A DNA stretch of 24,007 nt from a virus. The position numbers and the translations under genes are program-made. Where the stretch lies: the IMG/VR virus record IMGVR_UViG_3300017740_000081, positions 1 through 24,007 of that record. One strand, written 5' to 3'. Position 1 is the first letter of the stretch, and each line of letters opens with the position of its first letter. Shown in pieces: positions 3,624-24,007 of the stretch. The notes beneath the pieces are model-generated. The model had not been told where the DNA came from and searched no databases. It worked only from the letters and a program-made list of their open reading frames with translations.

Positions 3624-4355
3624 TTATTGTTTTTTCTGTTGGATTTCTTGAGCTATCTTTGTGTTAGCTCCTTGTACTACTTCTGGTGATTTTATAGAGA
3701 ACCCAGCTAGCTCTAGTATTTTTAATACTAAAAAGTTTTCCTCTGATGGATGTAGTTGAAAGTCTACAGCTGTGCCAGCGTTAAACAAAGGAAACTCATT
3801 ACCATTACTTGAATTAGGCACTACTACATATCCCCAGTAAGCGGTTGTTGGCTTTTGATAGTAGTTTATTTTAACATTGCTTGTTATAGCTGTTGTGCCA
3901 GTTATTGTTATAGCTGAAAAACAATTAATACCTGAGGATGTTTGAACAAAAACAGGTCTAGAAGCTGTTACTATAGGTAGAGGAGATATTCTATACTCGT
4001 GTAACTCTTTTTTAGTTATTCTTTCTATAGGTATAATGTTGTTACTACCATCTGTATAATACATGTTAGATATTCTGTACAGATCGTTTGGTAGTGTAAC
4101 GCCACTTGTTACAGTGGCATCGTGTATTTCAAACTCTGATAGTTTTTCTTGAAGAAACATTACAATGTCTGAGTGGCCAGTGTCGTTTCCGTGTATTTGC
4201 TCAAACTGCTTTAAATCATAGAAATATTTTTCAAATATATCCATTTGAGCTTGATTAGCAAATAGGTTAAATTCTTGAGGCGTTATAAAACCTCTTTGTT
4301 CTTTATTGGCAATAGCCAAAACTCTTTGATATACAGTATCTACACTAATCGCCAT
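3624..4355 (-). CDS. Putative tail adaptor / ring protein
   Basis: This 243-residue protein opens with a helical segment (VYQRVLAIANKEQRGFITP, about 7-25) followed by FNLFANQAQMDIFEKYFYDL, a pattern I know from adaptor-like proteins of marine and crAss-like phages. A beta-rich core follows (LPNDLYRISNMYYTDG, about 89-104; INYYQKP, about 163-169) and a short C-terminal helix (EENFLVLKILELAGF). It ends three bases before the next adaptor gene, so the two are probably co-translated and may form stacked rings between portal and nozzle. No catalytic motif is visible. It could instead be a head-completion protein. Start ATG at 4355 has an AT-only leader without a Shine-Dalgarno box. Confidence 0.55.
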   Translation of the reverse strand: MAISVDTVYQRVLAIANKEQRGFITPQEFNLFANQAQMDIFEKYFYDLKQFEQIHGNDTGHSDIVMFLQEKLSEFEIHDATVTSGVTLPNDLYRISNMYYTDGSNNIIPIERITKKELHEYRISPLPIVTASRPVFVQTSSGINCFSAITITGTTAITSNVKINYYQKPTTAYWGYVVVPNSSNGNEFPLFNAGTAVDFQLHPSEENFLVLKILELAGFSIKSPEVVQGANTKIAQEIQQKKQ

Positions 4356-4378
4356 ATTTTATATTTTTATAGTTTAGC

Positions 4379-4398
4379 AACCACCCCGAAGAGTGGCT
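4379..4398 (-). terminator. UUCG-capped hairpin after the 281-residue gene
   Basis: Read on the minus strand the sequence is AGCCACTC-TTCG-GGGTGGTT: an 8-bp stem with two G-T wobbles closed by a C(UUCG)G tetraloop, among the most stable RNA loops known. It lies in the 62-base gap between two leftward genes. No long U run follows, so it may be an RNA-processing or stability hairpin, or a weak attenuator, rather than a full terminator. Confidence 0.5.
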
Positions 4399-4417
4399 GC
4401 TCTACTACATAGGGTTG

Positions 4418-5263
4418 TTACGAATTTAATCGCTTTTCAATATTGGAGTAAATCTCCATTCCTTCATCAGTCTTAAACCATTGTGCTAGCGCCGAGTATG
4501 GGTGCTCATCAAATGGTACTGTCATTAGCTTTCTGTCGTTAGACGACCAAGTAAAGTGACGTTGATCAGAAGATAATCTAATTATCCCTAACTCAGTCGC
4601 TTTAATACCAAAGTTTCTAAGCGCAACGTTTTCATCAGTAACTAATTCTAAGAACAGTTTAGGATTTCTCTTTGCAAATACTAGCAAATCTCTTCTTAGC
4701 TCCTTAGAGCTCATCCCTGTTACTTCAGATCCCTTCTCTACACGCATTACAGCTTCAGCCATTTCAATATCCAAGTCTAAAGCAACTATCATAGCCTTAG
4801 CTTCAAACTCTAGCCAATCAACATGGCTTGCAGCTTCTTCTATAGGTTTGTGCTCTTCATATAGAACATCTTTATGCGGGTGATACACTGACAGTAACTT
4901 TTGAAGAACTGTTTTGTTCTTAGGAACAAACAATGCTCCGTTTTCAAAAATAATATGCTCTAGTCTAGCATCACCTTTAAACTCATCAACAAAAGGTGTT
5001 CTTTGATTTGTTGTAATCTTTAGCTCTCTCTCATATCCTTTTTCTTCATCAAAATAGAATATATTAGCACCTCTTATTGTATAAGTTAGTGGTGCTACAT
5101 TACCTTTTAAGTAATAGTACCTGTCTTTTATCTCCCAGTTGTCTTCTGGTCTTTTTTTAACAGGAGTTTTTACTTTTTTTTCTATAACTACTTCTTGCAT
5201 CTCGTTCGACGCTGTAGGTTGAGGTGTTTCTACCTCTGTATTTTTTGTTTGCTTTTTAGCCAT
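4418..5263 (-). CDS. Conserved virion-module protein of unknown function (281 aa)
   Basis: The gene sits between the major capsid protein and the adaptor genes, each side separated by a strong hairpin. The first 40 residues are Lys/Glu/Thr/Pro-rich and probably disordered. The next part (about 43-115) looks beta-rich (DRYYYLKGNVAPLTYTIRG, EKGYERELKITTNQRTPFVDE) and ends FENGALFVPKNKTVLQKLL. The C-terminal half is helical with MSSKELRRDLLVFAKRNP and ends in ALAQWFKTDEGMEIYSNIEK. I have the impression of close relatives in uncultured marine phages, always near the capsid gene, but no assigned function. Possible roles are a head-completion, capsid-cargo or scaffolding-associated protein; nothing in the sequence decides between these. 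Confidence 0.6.
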   Translation of the reverse strand: MAKKQTKNTEVETPQPTASNEMQEVVIEKKVKTPVKKRPEDNWEIKDRYYYLKGNVAPLTYTIRGANIFYFDEEKGYERELKITTNQRTPFVDEFKGDARLEHIIFENGALFVPKNKTVLQKLLSVYHPHKDVLYEEHKPIEEAASHVDWLEFEAKAMIVALDLDIEMAEAVMRVEKGSEVTGMSSKELRRDLLVFAKRNPKLFLELVTDENVALRNFGIKATELGIIRLSSDQRHFTWSSNDRKLMTVPFDEHPYSALAQWFKTDEGMEIYSNIEKRLNS

Positions 5264-21048: not shown

Positions 21049-21285
21049 CTAGCAATTTTTACGCCTTTTTTTTCCGTGGATTCTTCTTCTACGGTAGGCA
21101 AAGGCTGCGACCTGCTGGTCTGGTTCTGTTGGTGTAGTTTTATCTTCTTGCGGTGTAGCTTGAATCTTTGTTAGCTGATCTTGTATTTGATCACCTGATG
21201 ATTCAGCACCATTATCTTGTACACTTTCTATACTTGTTCGTATATCCGCGGCTGTACCTGGTTCTCTAACCCCTTTCTTTATCAT
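21049..21285 (-). CDS. Small protein with acidic body and basic tail (78 aa)
   Basis: This 78-residue protein has a Gln/Thr/Asp/Glu-rich, probably disordered body (SIESVQDNGAESSGDQIQDQ; QATPQEDKTTPTEPDQQV) and ends in AFAYRRRRIHGKKRRKNC, which is extremely basic. Its start overlaps the end of the upstream gene by four bases (ATGA), implying coupled translation. The basic tail may bind DNA or act as a localisation tag. No family is recognised. A 51-base AT-rich gap follows before the 140-residue gene. Confidence 0.5.
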   Translation of the reverse strand: MIKKGVREPGTAADIRTSIESVQDNGAESSGDQIQDQLTKIQATPQEDKTTPTEPDQQVAAFAYRRRRIHGKKRRKNC

Positions 21286-21731
21286 GATCCGCTTTGTTTC
21301 TTGTTGTAGTAATCTACCATTCGCGAAAAACCTGATTCATAGTCACTAGGCTTTAGCTCCTGATTTTTAATCTGAGACTGAACGTATCTATAACCAGTTA
21401 AATCTCTATCGATCCAATTAGCGCGCTTTGTACGCCTTGGGTCTTTCTTGTTCTTATTCTTTGTTTCTGTATTCTTTGCTTTTATAACTTCACCGTCACG
21501 ATCTAAAACAATCTTAGATTTATACCCATCGTCACCTTTAGTCTTTATAATAGTCTTACCGCCTCTAGTCTTTACTTTAGATTTGAATTTAGGCTTTGTC
21601 TGCTTGTTAGGGCTTTCCATTTTGTCGATGTGTTTTTCAATCGTTCTCGCCTGCTTGCCGTGGGCTATAACAGCTGAGTCTAATTGTTTAACAACCTCTT
21701 TAAGGTTTTTGTACTTCATCTTGAATGCCAT
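21282..21731 (-). CDS. First gene of the leftward unit: basic FKMK / SPNKQ protein (149 aa)
   Basis: It starts MAFKMKYKNLKEVVKQLDS, has a helical N-terminal domain to about residue 37, then DKMESPNKQTKPKFKSKVK (36-54), a Lys/Arg-rich middle (KTIIKTKGDDGYKSKIVLDRDG), and a C-terminal region with YRYVQSQIKNQELKPSDYES. It is the first coding sequence transcribed leftward from the divergent control region. The basic SPNKQ motif links it to the four following genes. No enzymatic motif. Possibly an internal virion protein; this is inference. Confidence 0.55.
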   Translation of the reverse strand: MAFKMKYKNLKEVVKQLDSAVIAHGKQARTIEKHIDKMESPNKQTKPKFKSKVKTRGGKTIIKTKGDDGYKSKIVLDRDGEVIKAKNTETKNKNKKDPRRTKRANWIDRDLTGYRYVQSQIKNQELKPSDYESGFSRMVDYYNKKQSGS

Positions 21732-21768
21732 GACTATATTATTACTTACATAGTAAATATATTAAAAG

Positions 21769-21816
21769 TGTGACAGTTGCCCCTTACTCTTACTCTATTA
21801 ACAGGCTAATGTCACA
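21769..21816. repeat. Inverted repeat TGTGACA...TGTCACA (possible operator)
   Basis: The arms TGTGACA (21769-21775) and TGTCACA (21810-21816) are perfect 7-base inverted repeats separated by 34 bases, with further GCC/GGC pairing inside. It lies just upstream of the first leftward gene, about 38 bases from its start. It could be a repressor operator or an RNA stem in the leader. Confidence 0.4.
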
Positions 21817-21940: not shown

Positions 21941-21977
21941 ACAACTTTAATACGACTTTACATTGATATTATATACG
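21941..21977 (+). promoter_or_regulatory. Shared early promoter-like element, copy 1
   Basis: ACAACTTT-AATACGAC-N8-GATATTATATACG. It is one of five gaplessly aligned copies with consensus ACAannTA, AATACGAC, eight variable bases, GATAATATAtaCG. It ends 38 bases before the 76-residue gene's ATG. The AATACGAC block, preceded here by T, matches the start of the T7 promoter (TAATACGAC), and the GATAATAT block can act as a -10-type box. Confidence 0.62.
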
Positions 21978-22015
21978 TAACAAATAAATAACTCAAACTT
22001 TTTAAATATTTTACT

Positions 22016-22246
22016 ATGCAAAATTCAAACACACTTACTACTAAAAGATTCGTAATCAGAAAAACATTGATCGGCTCTAACACTATCATTACATTCACTA
22101 ATAAGAAAAATGTAACATATACCTACGATCACGATGCAGTGTATTCACTCAATCAAGAAAAGTTAGAAACTATGGAATGTTTCCAAAAGTATGGTAACTA
22201 CACTAACAGTAACAACTTACCTACTTGGGCACGACTTACAGACTAA
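22016..22246 (+). CDS. Early small protein, duplicated family copy A (76 aa)
   Basis: It contains KRFVIRKTLIGSNTIITFT (10-28), then VTYTYDHDAVY and KLETMECFQKYGNYTNSN, which together look like a small beta-plus-helix fold. A second gene at 23251 encodes a paralogue identical at about 36 of 64 aligned positions, including KRFV, RK, HD, VY, KLETM, C, KY and YT. Unknown function; the family looks like a host-take-over or regulatory early protein. Its leader has no Shine-Dalgarno. It is the first rightward gene after the divergent region. Confidence 0.65.
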   Translation: MQNSNTLTTKRFVIRKTLIGSNTIITFTNKKNVTYTYDHDAVYSLNQEKLETMECFQKYGNYTNSNNLPTWARLTD

Positions 22247-22274
22247 ATACTACTCTAATTTGATAATATAATCG
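22238..22274 (+). promoter_or_regulatory. Shared early promoter-like element, copy 2
   Basis: ACAGACTA-AATACTAC-N8-GATAATATAATCG. It begins inside the last codons of the preceding gene and ends 21 bases before the ATG of the 62-residue gene. Spacing between blocks is identical to the other four copies; one G in AATACGAC is T here. Confidence 0.58.
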
Positions 22275-22295
22275 AAACTAATAAATAAATAAATT

Positions 22296-22484
22296 ATGAC
22301 TACATTAAAGATCTACACTAATCACTCTGACAAACTAATTGTTACTATCCATAACATTGAAGATCTCTTCCACCAATACGGGATCGATCCAACGGATCAA
22401 GATCTATTCGAATCAGAGATCCTCGAGGATATATTCGAAGAGGAATGTCTAAACTCTTCTCATGTGTACTATGAGTTGATCTAA
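22296..22484 (+). CDS. Small acidic protein of unknown function (62 aa)
   Basis: It starts MTTLKIYTNHSDKLIVTIHN with two probable strands, then an acidic helix-rich part (DPTDQDLFESEILEDIFEEE) and ends SSHVYYELI. The net charge is strongly negative. The size, acidity and position among early genes fit DNA mimics or enzyme inhibitors, but no family is recognised. The leader AATAAATAAATAAATT is the same type as that of the 75-residue gene. Confidence 0.6.
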   Translation: MTTLKIYTNHSDKLIVTIHNIEDLFHQYGIDPTDQDLFESEILEDIFEEECLNSSHVYYELI

Positions 22485-22517
22485 CAAACTAATAATTAAC
22501 TAATAAATAATACTAAT

Positions 22518-22631
22518 ATGAAAATCACTAATAAATATACAGGTCGTGATGTTACTAAGTACTACATCGCTCTACTCGAAGGTTTGATCACTAACGATGA
22601 ATTTGAATTACTAACTTTAACAATAAAATAA
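22518..22631 (+). CDS. Microprotein with ITxxxFE motif, duplicated family copy A (37 aa)
   Basis: The ATG at 22518 opens MKITNKYTGRDVTKYYIALL, followed by EGLITNDEFELLTLTIK and TAA. It matches the 37-residue protein at 23590 at 23 of 37 positions. The pattern [LY]LEGxITxDxFExLT resembles the helical SHOCT-type segment (GxITxEEFE), a short oligomerising helix pair, though this similarity is weak. Its stop overlaps the start of the next gene (TAATG). The conserved duplicate makes it a real gene despite its size. Confidence 0.68.
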   Translation: MKITNKYTGRDVTKYYIALLEGLITNDEFELLTLTIK

Positions 22632-22705
22632 TGAAAACTAGAACACTACTATGTCTGATCGCCGATCTACTAATTGTCACAATACTAATACTAATCTTTT
22701 ACTAA
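22631..22705 (+). CDS. Membrane microprotein (24 aa)
   Basis: MKTRTLLCLIADLLIVTILI followed by LIFY is one hydrophobic span of about 19 residues after a short basic N-terminus (K2, R4). The start overlaps the preceding stop (TAATG). It is too small to identify, but composition, coupling and the following membrane microprotein support it as a gene. Confidence 0.45.
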   Translation: MKTRTLLCLIADLLIVTILILIFY

Positions 22706-22706
22706 T

Positions 22707-22817
22707 ATGGAAATTATACACGATATTACTATACTAATTGTACTTGGAATTATTTTACAATTTATTGAAAAGTGTATTGTAAATCGAGACGAGTCGGACA
22801 GTACACCTCAACTATAA
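22707..22817 (+). CDS. Membrane microprotein with charged tail (36 aa)
   Basis: It starts one base after the previous stop: MEIIHDITILIVLGIILQFI, then EKCIVNRDESDSTPQL. One hydrophobic span (about 8-20) is followed by a charged, probably cytoplasmic tail with one Cys. Together with the preceding 24-residue protein it forms a pair of tiny membrane proteins in an early-type operon, reminiscent of superinfection-exclusion or host-membrane proteins; this is inference. Confidence 0.45.
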   Translation: MEIIHDITILIVLGIILQFIEKCIVNRDESDSTPQL

Positions 22818-22847
22818 TTATTCTATAAACAAATTATATACTTTTGT

Positions 22848-22884
22848 ACAACTTAAATACGACCTATATTAGATAATATATACG
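22848..22884 (+). promoter_or_regulatory. Shared early promoter-like element, copy 3
   Basis: ACAACTTA-AATACGAC-N8-GATAATATATACG, closest to copy 1. It ends 39 bases before the ATG of the 77-residue gene and lies in the 106-base gap after the membrane microproteins. Confidence 0.62.
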
Positions 22885-22923
22885 AATAAAATAAATAATA
22901 TAAACTTTAAAAAATAATAAATT

Positions 22924-23157
22924 ATGAACTCAATTAAAAACTCTCAAATCAAAATCTTAAAAATTAATAATAAAACTTATTTACCATATCAATTACATCA
23001 ATTACCAAAGTTCTTTGATAAATATACAACTGACTTCTTTAACTTAAAAGGTTACTGTTATATAAACTTAAATGATCACTCTGATTCGTTTAACTTCCAA
23101 AACTTTAAAAATCGATTAACATTCAATAAAGATATACACTACTCTTTAAAACGTTAA
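22924..23157 (+). CDS. Small protein of unknown function (77 aa)
   Basis: It begins MNSIKNSQIKILKINNKTYL, with YQLHQLPKFFDKYTTDFFNL and a C-terminal FKNRLTFNKDIHYSLKR. It is rich in Asn, Lys, Phe and Tyr, basic, and probably mixed strand and helix. No motif is recognised. It lies under its own promoter-like element, and its stop is one base before the next one. Confidence 0.55.
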   Translation: MNSIKNSQIKILKINNKTYLPYQLHQLPKFFDKYTTDFFNLKGYCYINLNDHSDSFNFQNFKNRLTFNKDIHYSLKR

Positions 23158-23158
23158 T

Positions 23159-23195
23159 ACAATATAAATACGACAGTTAACTGATAATATATATG
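23159..23195 (+). promoter_or_regulatory. Shared early promoter-like element, copy 4
   Basis: ACAATATA-AATACGAC-N8-GATAATATATATG. It starts one base after the preceding gene's stop and ends 55 bases before the 75-residue gene's ATG, the longest leader of the set because of an AAT microsatellite. Confidence 0.62.
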
Positions 23196-23206
23196 AACGT
23201 CAACTA

Positions 23207-23227
23207 AATAATAATAATAATAATAAT
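23207..23227 (+). repeat. (AAT)7 microsatellite in a 5' leader
   Basis: Seven uninterrupted AAT units, continuing into AACTAATAATAAATAAATAAATT before the ATG at 23251. It lies between promoter element copy 4 and the second copy of the duplicated early gene, so slippage could change leader length and translation. Confidence 0.7.
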
Positions 23228-23250
23228 AACTAATAATAAATAAATAAATT

Positions 23251-23478
23251 ATGTCTAAATTAAATTCAAAAAGATTCGTACTAAGAAAGTCTCTAGTCGG
23301 TCAAAATCAAATCATCGAAGTAACATTCAAAAATGGTAACACAGTAACTTACAATCACGATAAAGTGTATGAGTTAATGAAAGATAAACTTGAAACAATG
23401 AACTGTTGGGAAAAGTACAAGTCGTACACTTCAAGTAATTCATTACCAGTTATTGTAAGAGATAAAGAAATTATCTAA
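23251..23478 (+). CDS. Early small protein, duplicated family copy B (75 aa)
   Basis: It contains KRFVLRKSLVGQNQIIEVT (8-26), VTYNHDKVYELMKDKLETM and CWEKYKSYTSSNSLP. It is the paralogue of the 76-residue protein at 22016, with the same length and order of blocks. Strong conservation of KRFV, HDxVY and KLETMxC shows that both are translated and under selection. Unknown function. Confidence 0.66.
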   Translation: MSKLNSKRFVLRKSLVGQNQIIEVTFKNGNTVTYNHDKVYELMKDKLETMNCWEKYKSYTSSNSLPVIVRDKEII

Positions 23479-23497
23479 TACAAAGTAAAGTCCAGTT

Positions 23498-23575
23498 AGT
23501 TTAGTGTTTACTGGTAGATCAAAATGAACACATAAGTATAAATGGTTAATAGTGGTTCGATTCCACTCTATACTA
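23498..23575 (+). ncRNA. tRNA-like element: perfect T-arm and acceptor, no normal anticodon arm
   Basis: AGTGG-TTCGATT-CCACT (23551-23567) is a perfect 5-bp T-stem with a canonical T-loop, followed by CTATACT-A, which fits a 7-base acceptor strand plus discriminator. A 5' strand AGTTTAG (23498-23504) pairs at six of seven positions, then T and G at positions 8-9, and a D-loop-like ACTGGTAGATC closed by TTT/AAA. No 5-7-5 anticodon arm can be drawn between 23525 and 23550. Other possible 5' partners are AGTAAAG (23484) and AGTATAA (23535). It could be a decayed tRNA gene, a tRNA mimic, or the 3' end of a host tRNA gene kept as an attachment site. Boundaries are uncertain. Confidence 0.4.
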
Positions 23576-23589
23576 CTAAAATAAATAAT

Positions 23590-23703
23590 ATGAAAGTAAC
23601 AAATAAAATTACAGGTGAAGACGTAACTAAATACGTACTACAATATCTTGAAGGTAAAATAACTAAAGATCAATTTGAAAAGTTGACAGGAGTTACAAAA
23701 TAA
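23590..23703 (+). CDS. Microprotein with ITxxxFE motif, duplicated family copy B (37 aa)
   Basis: MKVTNKITGEDVTKYVLQYL then EGKITKDQFEKLTGVTK and TAA: the paralogue of the 22518 gene. The region holds one gene of about 75 codons followed by one of 37 codons in both copies, with other material between, so the pair was duplicated as a cassette. The C-terminal GVTK differs from copy A. Confidence 0.66.
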   Translation: MKVTNKITGEDVTKYVLQYLEGKITKDQFEKLTGVTK

Positions 23704-23731
23704 TTACGATCAAGTATGGATAATATAACTG
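23695..23731 (+). promoter_or_regulatory. Shared early promoter-like element, copy 5
   Basis: ACAAAATA-ATTACGAT-N8-GATAATATAACTG, the most diverged of the five copies. It overlaps the last codons of the preceding microprotein gene and ends 21 bases before the next ATG. Confidence 0.52.
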
Positions 23732-23752: not shown

Positions 23753-24007
23753 ATGACTCAAGAAACAGTAGAAAGAATAATAGATGAAACAGTAGATACT
23801 ATAATAGATAATATAGATGAGAAAACAGTAGATTACATGTTTGAATATGGTAACTATGAAGAAACAAATGATCAATTTGTAGAAGACTTGATAGTATTTA
23901 AACAACCAAACTTTCACTTTAAAATGATAAATGATGTAGTGGTTATCAACAGAAGAAAACCAGTGGAATTTAACCATTGTGAGATCGCAGAGTGGAAATC
24001 AATCAGA
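23753..24007 (+). CDS. Acidic early protein, 3' end cut off by the window edge
   Basis: An open frame of 85 codons from ATG at 23753 reaches the last base without a stop. It starts MTQETVERIIDETVDTIIDN, a repetitive ETVxxIIDxxVD helix pattern, then EKTVDYMFEYGNYEETNDQF, and later VVVINRRKPVEFNHCEIAEW. It is acidic in its first half. It follows promoter-like copy 5 and so is probably an early gene. No family is recognised, and the full length is unknown. Confidence 0.55.
   Translation, partial: MTQETVERIIDETVDTIIDNIDEKTVDYMFEYGNYEETNDQFVEDLIVFKQPNFHFKMINDVVVINRRKPVEFNHCEIAEWKSIR

Follow-up and report, generated by a model that had tools for sequence, protein, structure and literature searches.

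Early transcription in phages usually starts with the host holoenzyme. The T7 promoter reads TAATACGACTCACTATAG, T4 middle promoters combine a MotA box near -30 with a sigma-70 -10 box, and N4, possibly together with crAss-like phages, carries an RNA polymerase in its virion. In phiEco32 and 7-11, structural genes occupy one strand and functional genes the other, a phage sigma factor is encoded in the functional cluster, and the first part of this cluster is under recognisable host promoters (PMC4331800). The main promoter box of flavobacteria is TAnnTTTG, and the classes described for them comprise TAnnTTTG variants, a sigma-54 type, TAnnTTGY and an ECF type with CGT (PMC9723704).

The stretch of DNA analysed here, the window, is a virus record of 24,007 bases that ends inside an array of early genes. 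Its leftward genes encode the terminase, the portal, virion proteins, GroEL and a GroES-like protein. The terminase is 64% identical to that of MW202828 and 47% identical to those of Flavobacterium elemo phages, with further kin in Cellulophaga phages (Pachyviridae, Pervagoviridae) and in Tenacibaculum phage Gundel. Judged by sequence, the window phage belongs to an uncultured lineage with Elemovirus, Pachyviridae and Pervagoviridae among its relatives. The rightward early array contains the following small genes and copies of a recurrent element, which we term class 1:

21941..21977, + strand: class-1 element, copy 1 (ACAACTTTAATACGACTTTACATTGATATTATATACG), in the divergent intergenic region, preceding the gene at 22016
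22016..22246, + strand: small early gene for a 76-aa protein, paralogous to 23251-23478
22238..22274, + strand: class-1 element, copy 2, overlapping the 3' end of gene 22016-22246 and preceding the gene at 22296
22296..22484, + strand: small early gene for a 62-aa protein without a family match
22848..22884, + strand: class-1 element, copy 3, preceding the gene at 22924
22924..23157, + strand: small early gene for a 77-aa protein without a family match
23159..23195, + strand: class-1 element, copy 4, abutting the 3' end of gene 22924-23157 and preceding the gene at 23251
23251..23478, + strand: small early gene for a 75-aa protein, paralogous to 22016-22246
23695..23731, + strand: class-1 element, copy 5, overlapping a small reading frame that ends at 23703, with the frame from 23754 next
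23754..24007, + strand: next early reading frame, start only, cut by the end of the record

Class 1 probably represents the early promoters of a phage-specified cascade that leads to a sigma factor, which would then open a second promoter class, class 2. Like phiEco32 and 7-11, the lineage displays a strand split, a sigma factor in the functional cluster and a corresponding layout of sigma promoters (PMC4331800). Unlike in those phages, the first genes of the clade are under a further phage-specific class, class 1, and the promoter sequences differ (phiEco32, TAATGTATA). The element resembles T4 middle promoters in having a -10-type box and a separate upstream box at about -30, but the box of the clade is longer and unrelated, the host belongs to another phylum, and the position is early instead of middle. 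An early gene array under a phage-specific signal is shared with the N4 virion-polymerase promoters; however, the element consensus shows no hairpin dyad by eye, and a search of 23 clade records found no recognisable single-subunit polymerase. The string AATACGAC is held in common with the T7 promoter, but the spacing and the downstream half are different, relatives keep only AATACGA, and no T7-type polymerase was found in these 23 clade records. Finally, the Bacteroidota sigma-A promoter (TAnnTTTG at about -7) is used by elemo and MW202828, which have no sigma gene, and is not matched by the element.

The sequence-only reading had described five gap-free copies with identical block order, lying 21-55 bases ahead of rightward genes. 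All five were confirmed in the window, on the + strand, and the distances from the end of the element to the next ATG were 38, 21, 39, 55 and 22 bases for copies 1-5. Two copies had been said to overlap the end of the preceding coding sequence; this holds for those at 22238 and 23695, and the copy at 23159 additionally abuts one. The blocks vary, reading AATACTAC at 22238, ATTACGAT at 23695 and GATATTATA at 21941. A pattern search of the window allowing 3 mismatches returned five forward matches, none on the reverse strand and none for the reversed control, while dinucleotide shuffles of the early region gave a mean of 0.01 match at two or fewer mismatches, against the five real ones. With leave-one-out matrices, the held-out copy scored 21.5-35.1 bits and non-members always scored lower, at 16.1 bits at most. 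A standard sigma-70 promoter scan of the region remained at chance level. Given the paralogous genes 22016 and 23251, two of the copies may have originated in an old duplication. The elements before these paralogues are, however, 73% identical, compared with 25-30% for their 40-base flanks, which indicates that the element was kept and not merely carried along with the duplication.

An exact 17-letter pattern scan of IMG/VR found the element in at least 119 stretches. We tested 40 large records, drawn from the listed pattern stretches plus two terminase hits, and 39 of them encode a relative of the terminase, mostly 71-83% identical. As the pattern search is blind to the terminase, this shared kinship shows that the element marks a lineage. 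One record, IMGVR_UViG_3300030107_004520, has a terminase 83% identical to that of the window and carries both a sigma gene and the element. In another (G020, 28873-31066), the terminase relative lies in several overlapping, partly disrupted pieces, possibly as a result of an insertion or an intron.

The position-matrix scan of relatives that the sequence-only reading had proposed did not yield random scatter over both strands. In ten near-complete relatives, a matrix refined on the very genomes in which sites were then counted identified 86 sites, 85 of them on the early strand and with no intermediate scores, whereas the control, the reversed matrix, gave 0 matches. The sites precede small genes and also replication and recombination genes. 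When dyads were counted de novo, without any motif given in advance, class 1 again emerged as the top signal of the early side, present in about 50 of 161 early upstream regions. The consensus refined from relatives is TTACAAAcTAAATACGA-N9-GATAATA(T)AwATR. The five copies first described are real, but the upstream block is longer than had been claimed, and relatives conserve the final C of AATACGAC weakly. The majority of predicted starts fall no more than 60 bases ahead of an ATG, and a purine predominates at the predicted start. Between genomes, GATAATA is unvarying, whereas the upstream box drifts genome by genome (0.091 within, 0.148 between), which hints at two readers.

The element is present in 32 of 35 sigma-bearing IMG/VR records and in none of five cultured or named relatives; as the spacing control of this search, a pattern with the spacer one base too long had 0 matches anywhere. 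Since sigma, class 1 and class 2 all fall within one clade, their co-occurrence may count as one ancestral event, which weighs against the cascade reading. The pattern search found no element in the sigma-bearing records G041, G042 and G070, and the matrix revealed drifted copies in two of these (L280, L324). The sigma locus L321 has no element nearby and few early genes around its sigma gene.

We compared the element with the promoter code of the host. In the sigma-free relatives MW202828 and elemo, TAnnTTTG occurs before genes 31 times versus 6 for the reversed box, while in ten clade members the counts are 31 versus 25, without enrichment. In elemo phage 7-9A (L207/L208), several late genes lie behind TATCTTTG host-type boxes, some of them right after terminator-like stretches. 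The box is missing from the class-1 consensus, in agreement with the earlier statement that the element does not fit the Bacteroidota promoter. A search of the clade for a single conserved host-type bootstrap promoter found none. In 300 Flavobacteriaceae genomes, a set representing the family of a Flavobacteriaceae MAG, the class-1 element matched 10 times, as did its control (10), and is therefore not enriched. From these sequence patterns, the clade appears to have replaced the host promoter code by two phage-specific ones.

It is improbable that host RNA polymerase with a host sigma factor reads class 1 as an unusual strong host promoter. Such a reading would accord with the customary use of the host holoenzyme by early phage genes and with the resemblance of GATAAT to the general sigma-70 -10 box. 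However, none of the described flavobacterial classes fits the element (PMC9723704), which is unenriched in the 300 host-family genomes, and the two sigma-less relatives retain TAnnTTTG. By comparison of sequences, the element is strongly supported as a phage-specific early-gene promoter, through its strand, its position before genes, its restriction to the clade, its non-enrichment in hosts and the missing host-type boxes. This is what the sequence-only reading had suggested; the comparison does not separate its two options, a host polymerase with a phage factor and a phage polymerase.

Most of the longer element-bearing records also encode a sigma factor, paired with a helix-turn-helix (HTH) protein. 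The sigma factor has about 250 aa with Sigma70 r2 and r4 regions in profile searches (PHROG 351, E 4e-25), and its identity is backed by its fold and by PDB sequence matches, the best of which is Aquifex FliA. The PHROG 351 sigma was detected in 26 of 37 clade records tested, and the misses are mostly shorter records; one sigma-less record (G035) appears to end where the sigma gene is expected. Profile searches found no sigma factor in MW202828, elemo, phi46:3 or phi38:1, and one weak partial match in Tenacibaculum phage Gundel. A sigma-like match in a 2888-aa protein of G034 was weak. Among 40 non-redundant loci, preselected for a gene of about 206-aa size at this very position and for four or more elements, the HTH gene lies directly 5' of the sigma gene in all 40; its product has about 206 aa with a C-terminal HTH. 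The predicted structure of the HTH partner is confident, and a fold search with it found no significant match to known structures. Neither the sigma factor nor the HTH protein matched any of 50,697 phage records. In relatives, both genes lie some kb beyond the counterpart of frame 23754; since the window stops short of this region, a sigma factor of the window phage itself is presumed from its relatives.

The usual count is one sigma gene per genome, against two promoter classes. G009 has two non-identical sigma genes (3695-4447 and 64909-65661), each with an HTH partner and an ERF gene, at opposite ends of the record; they reflect either a duplication or two strains joined at assembly ends. 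Contigs assigned to Aliivibrio and Ilumatobacteraceae MAGs (L332, L333, L334) also carry the sigma gene of the lineage; they are probably phage contigs that were misassigned to these bins.

Dyad counts on late upstream regions revealed class 2, GTAAAT-N13-TGTRAYTATAnTA, which is unrelated to class 1. Of the strong class-2 sites, 26 precede late genes and 6 lie on the early strand, and the reversed matrix gives 0 strong matches. In 67 of 84 loci, class 2 is found 743-792 bases after the sigma start, just beyond the sigma stop; at the lower threshold of this sigma-locus scan the reversed matrix has 19 matches, so that single class-2 calls are uncertain and the post-sigma position is not. The window itself has one candidate:

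21728..21771, - strand: weak site resembling class 2 (ATGTAAGTAATAATATA), ahead of 21282-21731, the first of the leftward genes; its score of 11.4 bits does not exceed the reversed control in the window

Across 86 sigma loci, 441 class-1 sites lie on the sigma strand, 426 of them upstream of the sigma gene and 15 downstream, with 2 further sites on the opposite strand and 0 in the control. Class 1 before the sigma gene and class 2 right after it form the layout of a cascade from class 1 through sigma to class 2. Promoters before late genes and downstream of sigma, as in phiEco32, are a feature of class 2 and not of class 1.

From these arrangements we infer that the element works as a promoter, where transcription starts, in what order the genes are expressed and which class each protein reads. 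In class 1, a -10-type box, GATAATA, would lie about 6 bases before a conserved purine at which transcription probably starts, and the 15-base upstream box, ACAAAcTAAATACGA, would span about -36 to -22. The polymerase is most likely the core enzyme of the host; a phage-specified factor would recruit it to these sites, which the host primary sigma would not do alone. Class 1 would drive the early genes and the operon encoding the HTH protein and sigma, and sigma would then most likely open class 2 before the post-sigma genes and the late operons.

A difficulty for the cascade reading is that, if the host sigma is not the reader, something else must read this non-host-like promoter before the phage sigma is made; the analysis identified no virion-borne factor. 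The role may fall to the host core together with a phage factor that is packaged in the virion or made very early, to carried-over sigma, to a distant polymerase from the virion or to an undescribed sigma of the host.

One possibility, which we consider rather unlikely, is that the phage sigma itself, perhaps with the HTH protein, reads class 1, the loop being started by virion-carried sigma or by leaky transcription. Sigma co-occurs with the element across the clade. GATAATA is similar to GATAA as found in sigma-28 promoters, Aquifex FliA is the best PDB sequence match of the phage sigma, and the drift of the upstream box beside an invariant GATAATA looks as if there were two readers. Motif distance is weakly correlated with HTH-partner distance (r 0.17, p 0.017), but uncorrelated with sigma distance (r 0.003). 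When the letters of the motif were tested for covariation with residues in sigma, in the HTH partner and in the product of the post-sigma gene, nothing was outstanding given the number of tests. Moreover, nearly all class-1 sites lie before sigma and class 2 right after it, and one sigma gene would generally have to serve two classes. Of the readers first envisaged, a phage factor has candidates in the sigma and HTH proteins of the clade, but sigma fits class 2 better, and a T7-type polymerase was not found in 23 clade records.

A virion-carried phage RNA polymerase reading class 1, with sigma and the host core reading class 2, seems quite unlikely. It would suit an element that stands on the first genes and is unenriched in host genomes, in a clade without host-type boxes, and the clade encodes giant late proteins of about 1600-3400 aa. 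However, PF00940 is absent from 23 clade records, with a positive T7 control, and both giant-protein profiles match no PDB polymerase at E up to 5, although sequence tests may miss very distant enzymes. A DxDxD polymerase motif scan of the large proteins produced scattered, meaningless matches only and was discarded. The second giant late gene (G012, G016 and relatives) encodes proteins of about 2300-3900 aa whose C-terminal region is conserved and in which a HAD-like motif can be made out by eye; they had no match among PDB sequences. A broader scenario, in which the lineage left the host promoter code entirely, a virion-delivered factor or polymerase reading the first genes and then making sigma for class 2, is conceivable but speculative.

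That the element is no promoter and serves instead as an operator, a shared leader or a signal for replication or packaging is very unlikely. Such a role could be entertained because the function of class 1 is read from sequence comparison and because the early region of MW202828 has a palindromic repeat that also occurs inside genes. Against it, the consensus has no dyad by eye, and the element is strictly confined to one strand and located ahead of genes, in many cases reaching into the end of the frame before it. Late operons carry the other class instead, and a -10-like box stands at a fixed distance from a purine. The MW202828 palindrome, GTGTCGTTAACGACAC, occurs in at least 14 perfect copies at about 43745-55154 (L205/L206), many of them 20-40 bases before a gene and some inside genes, and is a different early signal in the nearest sigma-free relative.

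Our literature search found nothing comparable to this two-class element and sigma system. With class 1 as the probable early promoter, an uncultured lineage with many IMG/VR members would have a two-class promoter code, from which the order of expression becomes predictable from sequence. Relatives with and without sigma offer a natural comparison of a phage leaving an unusual host promoter code, and the element and its reader could become an expression pair in Bacteroidota.

Two further features lie within the early array of the window. A tRNA-like sequence with an intact T arm is located at 23498-23575 on the + strand; it scores 24.5 bits with the Rfam tRNA model (gathering score 29), and ARAGORN called no tRNA there. 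By eye, the array also contains tandem paralogues, a protein of 36-37 aa being encoded twice, at 22520 and 23590.
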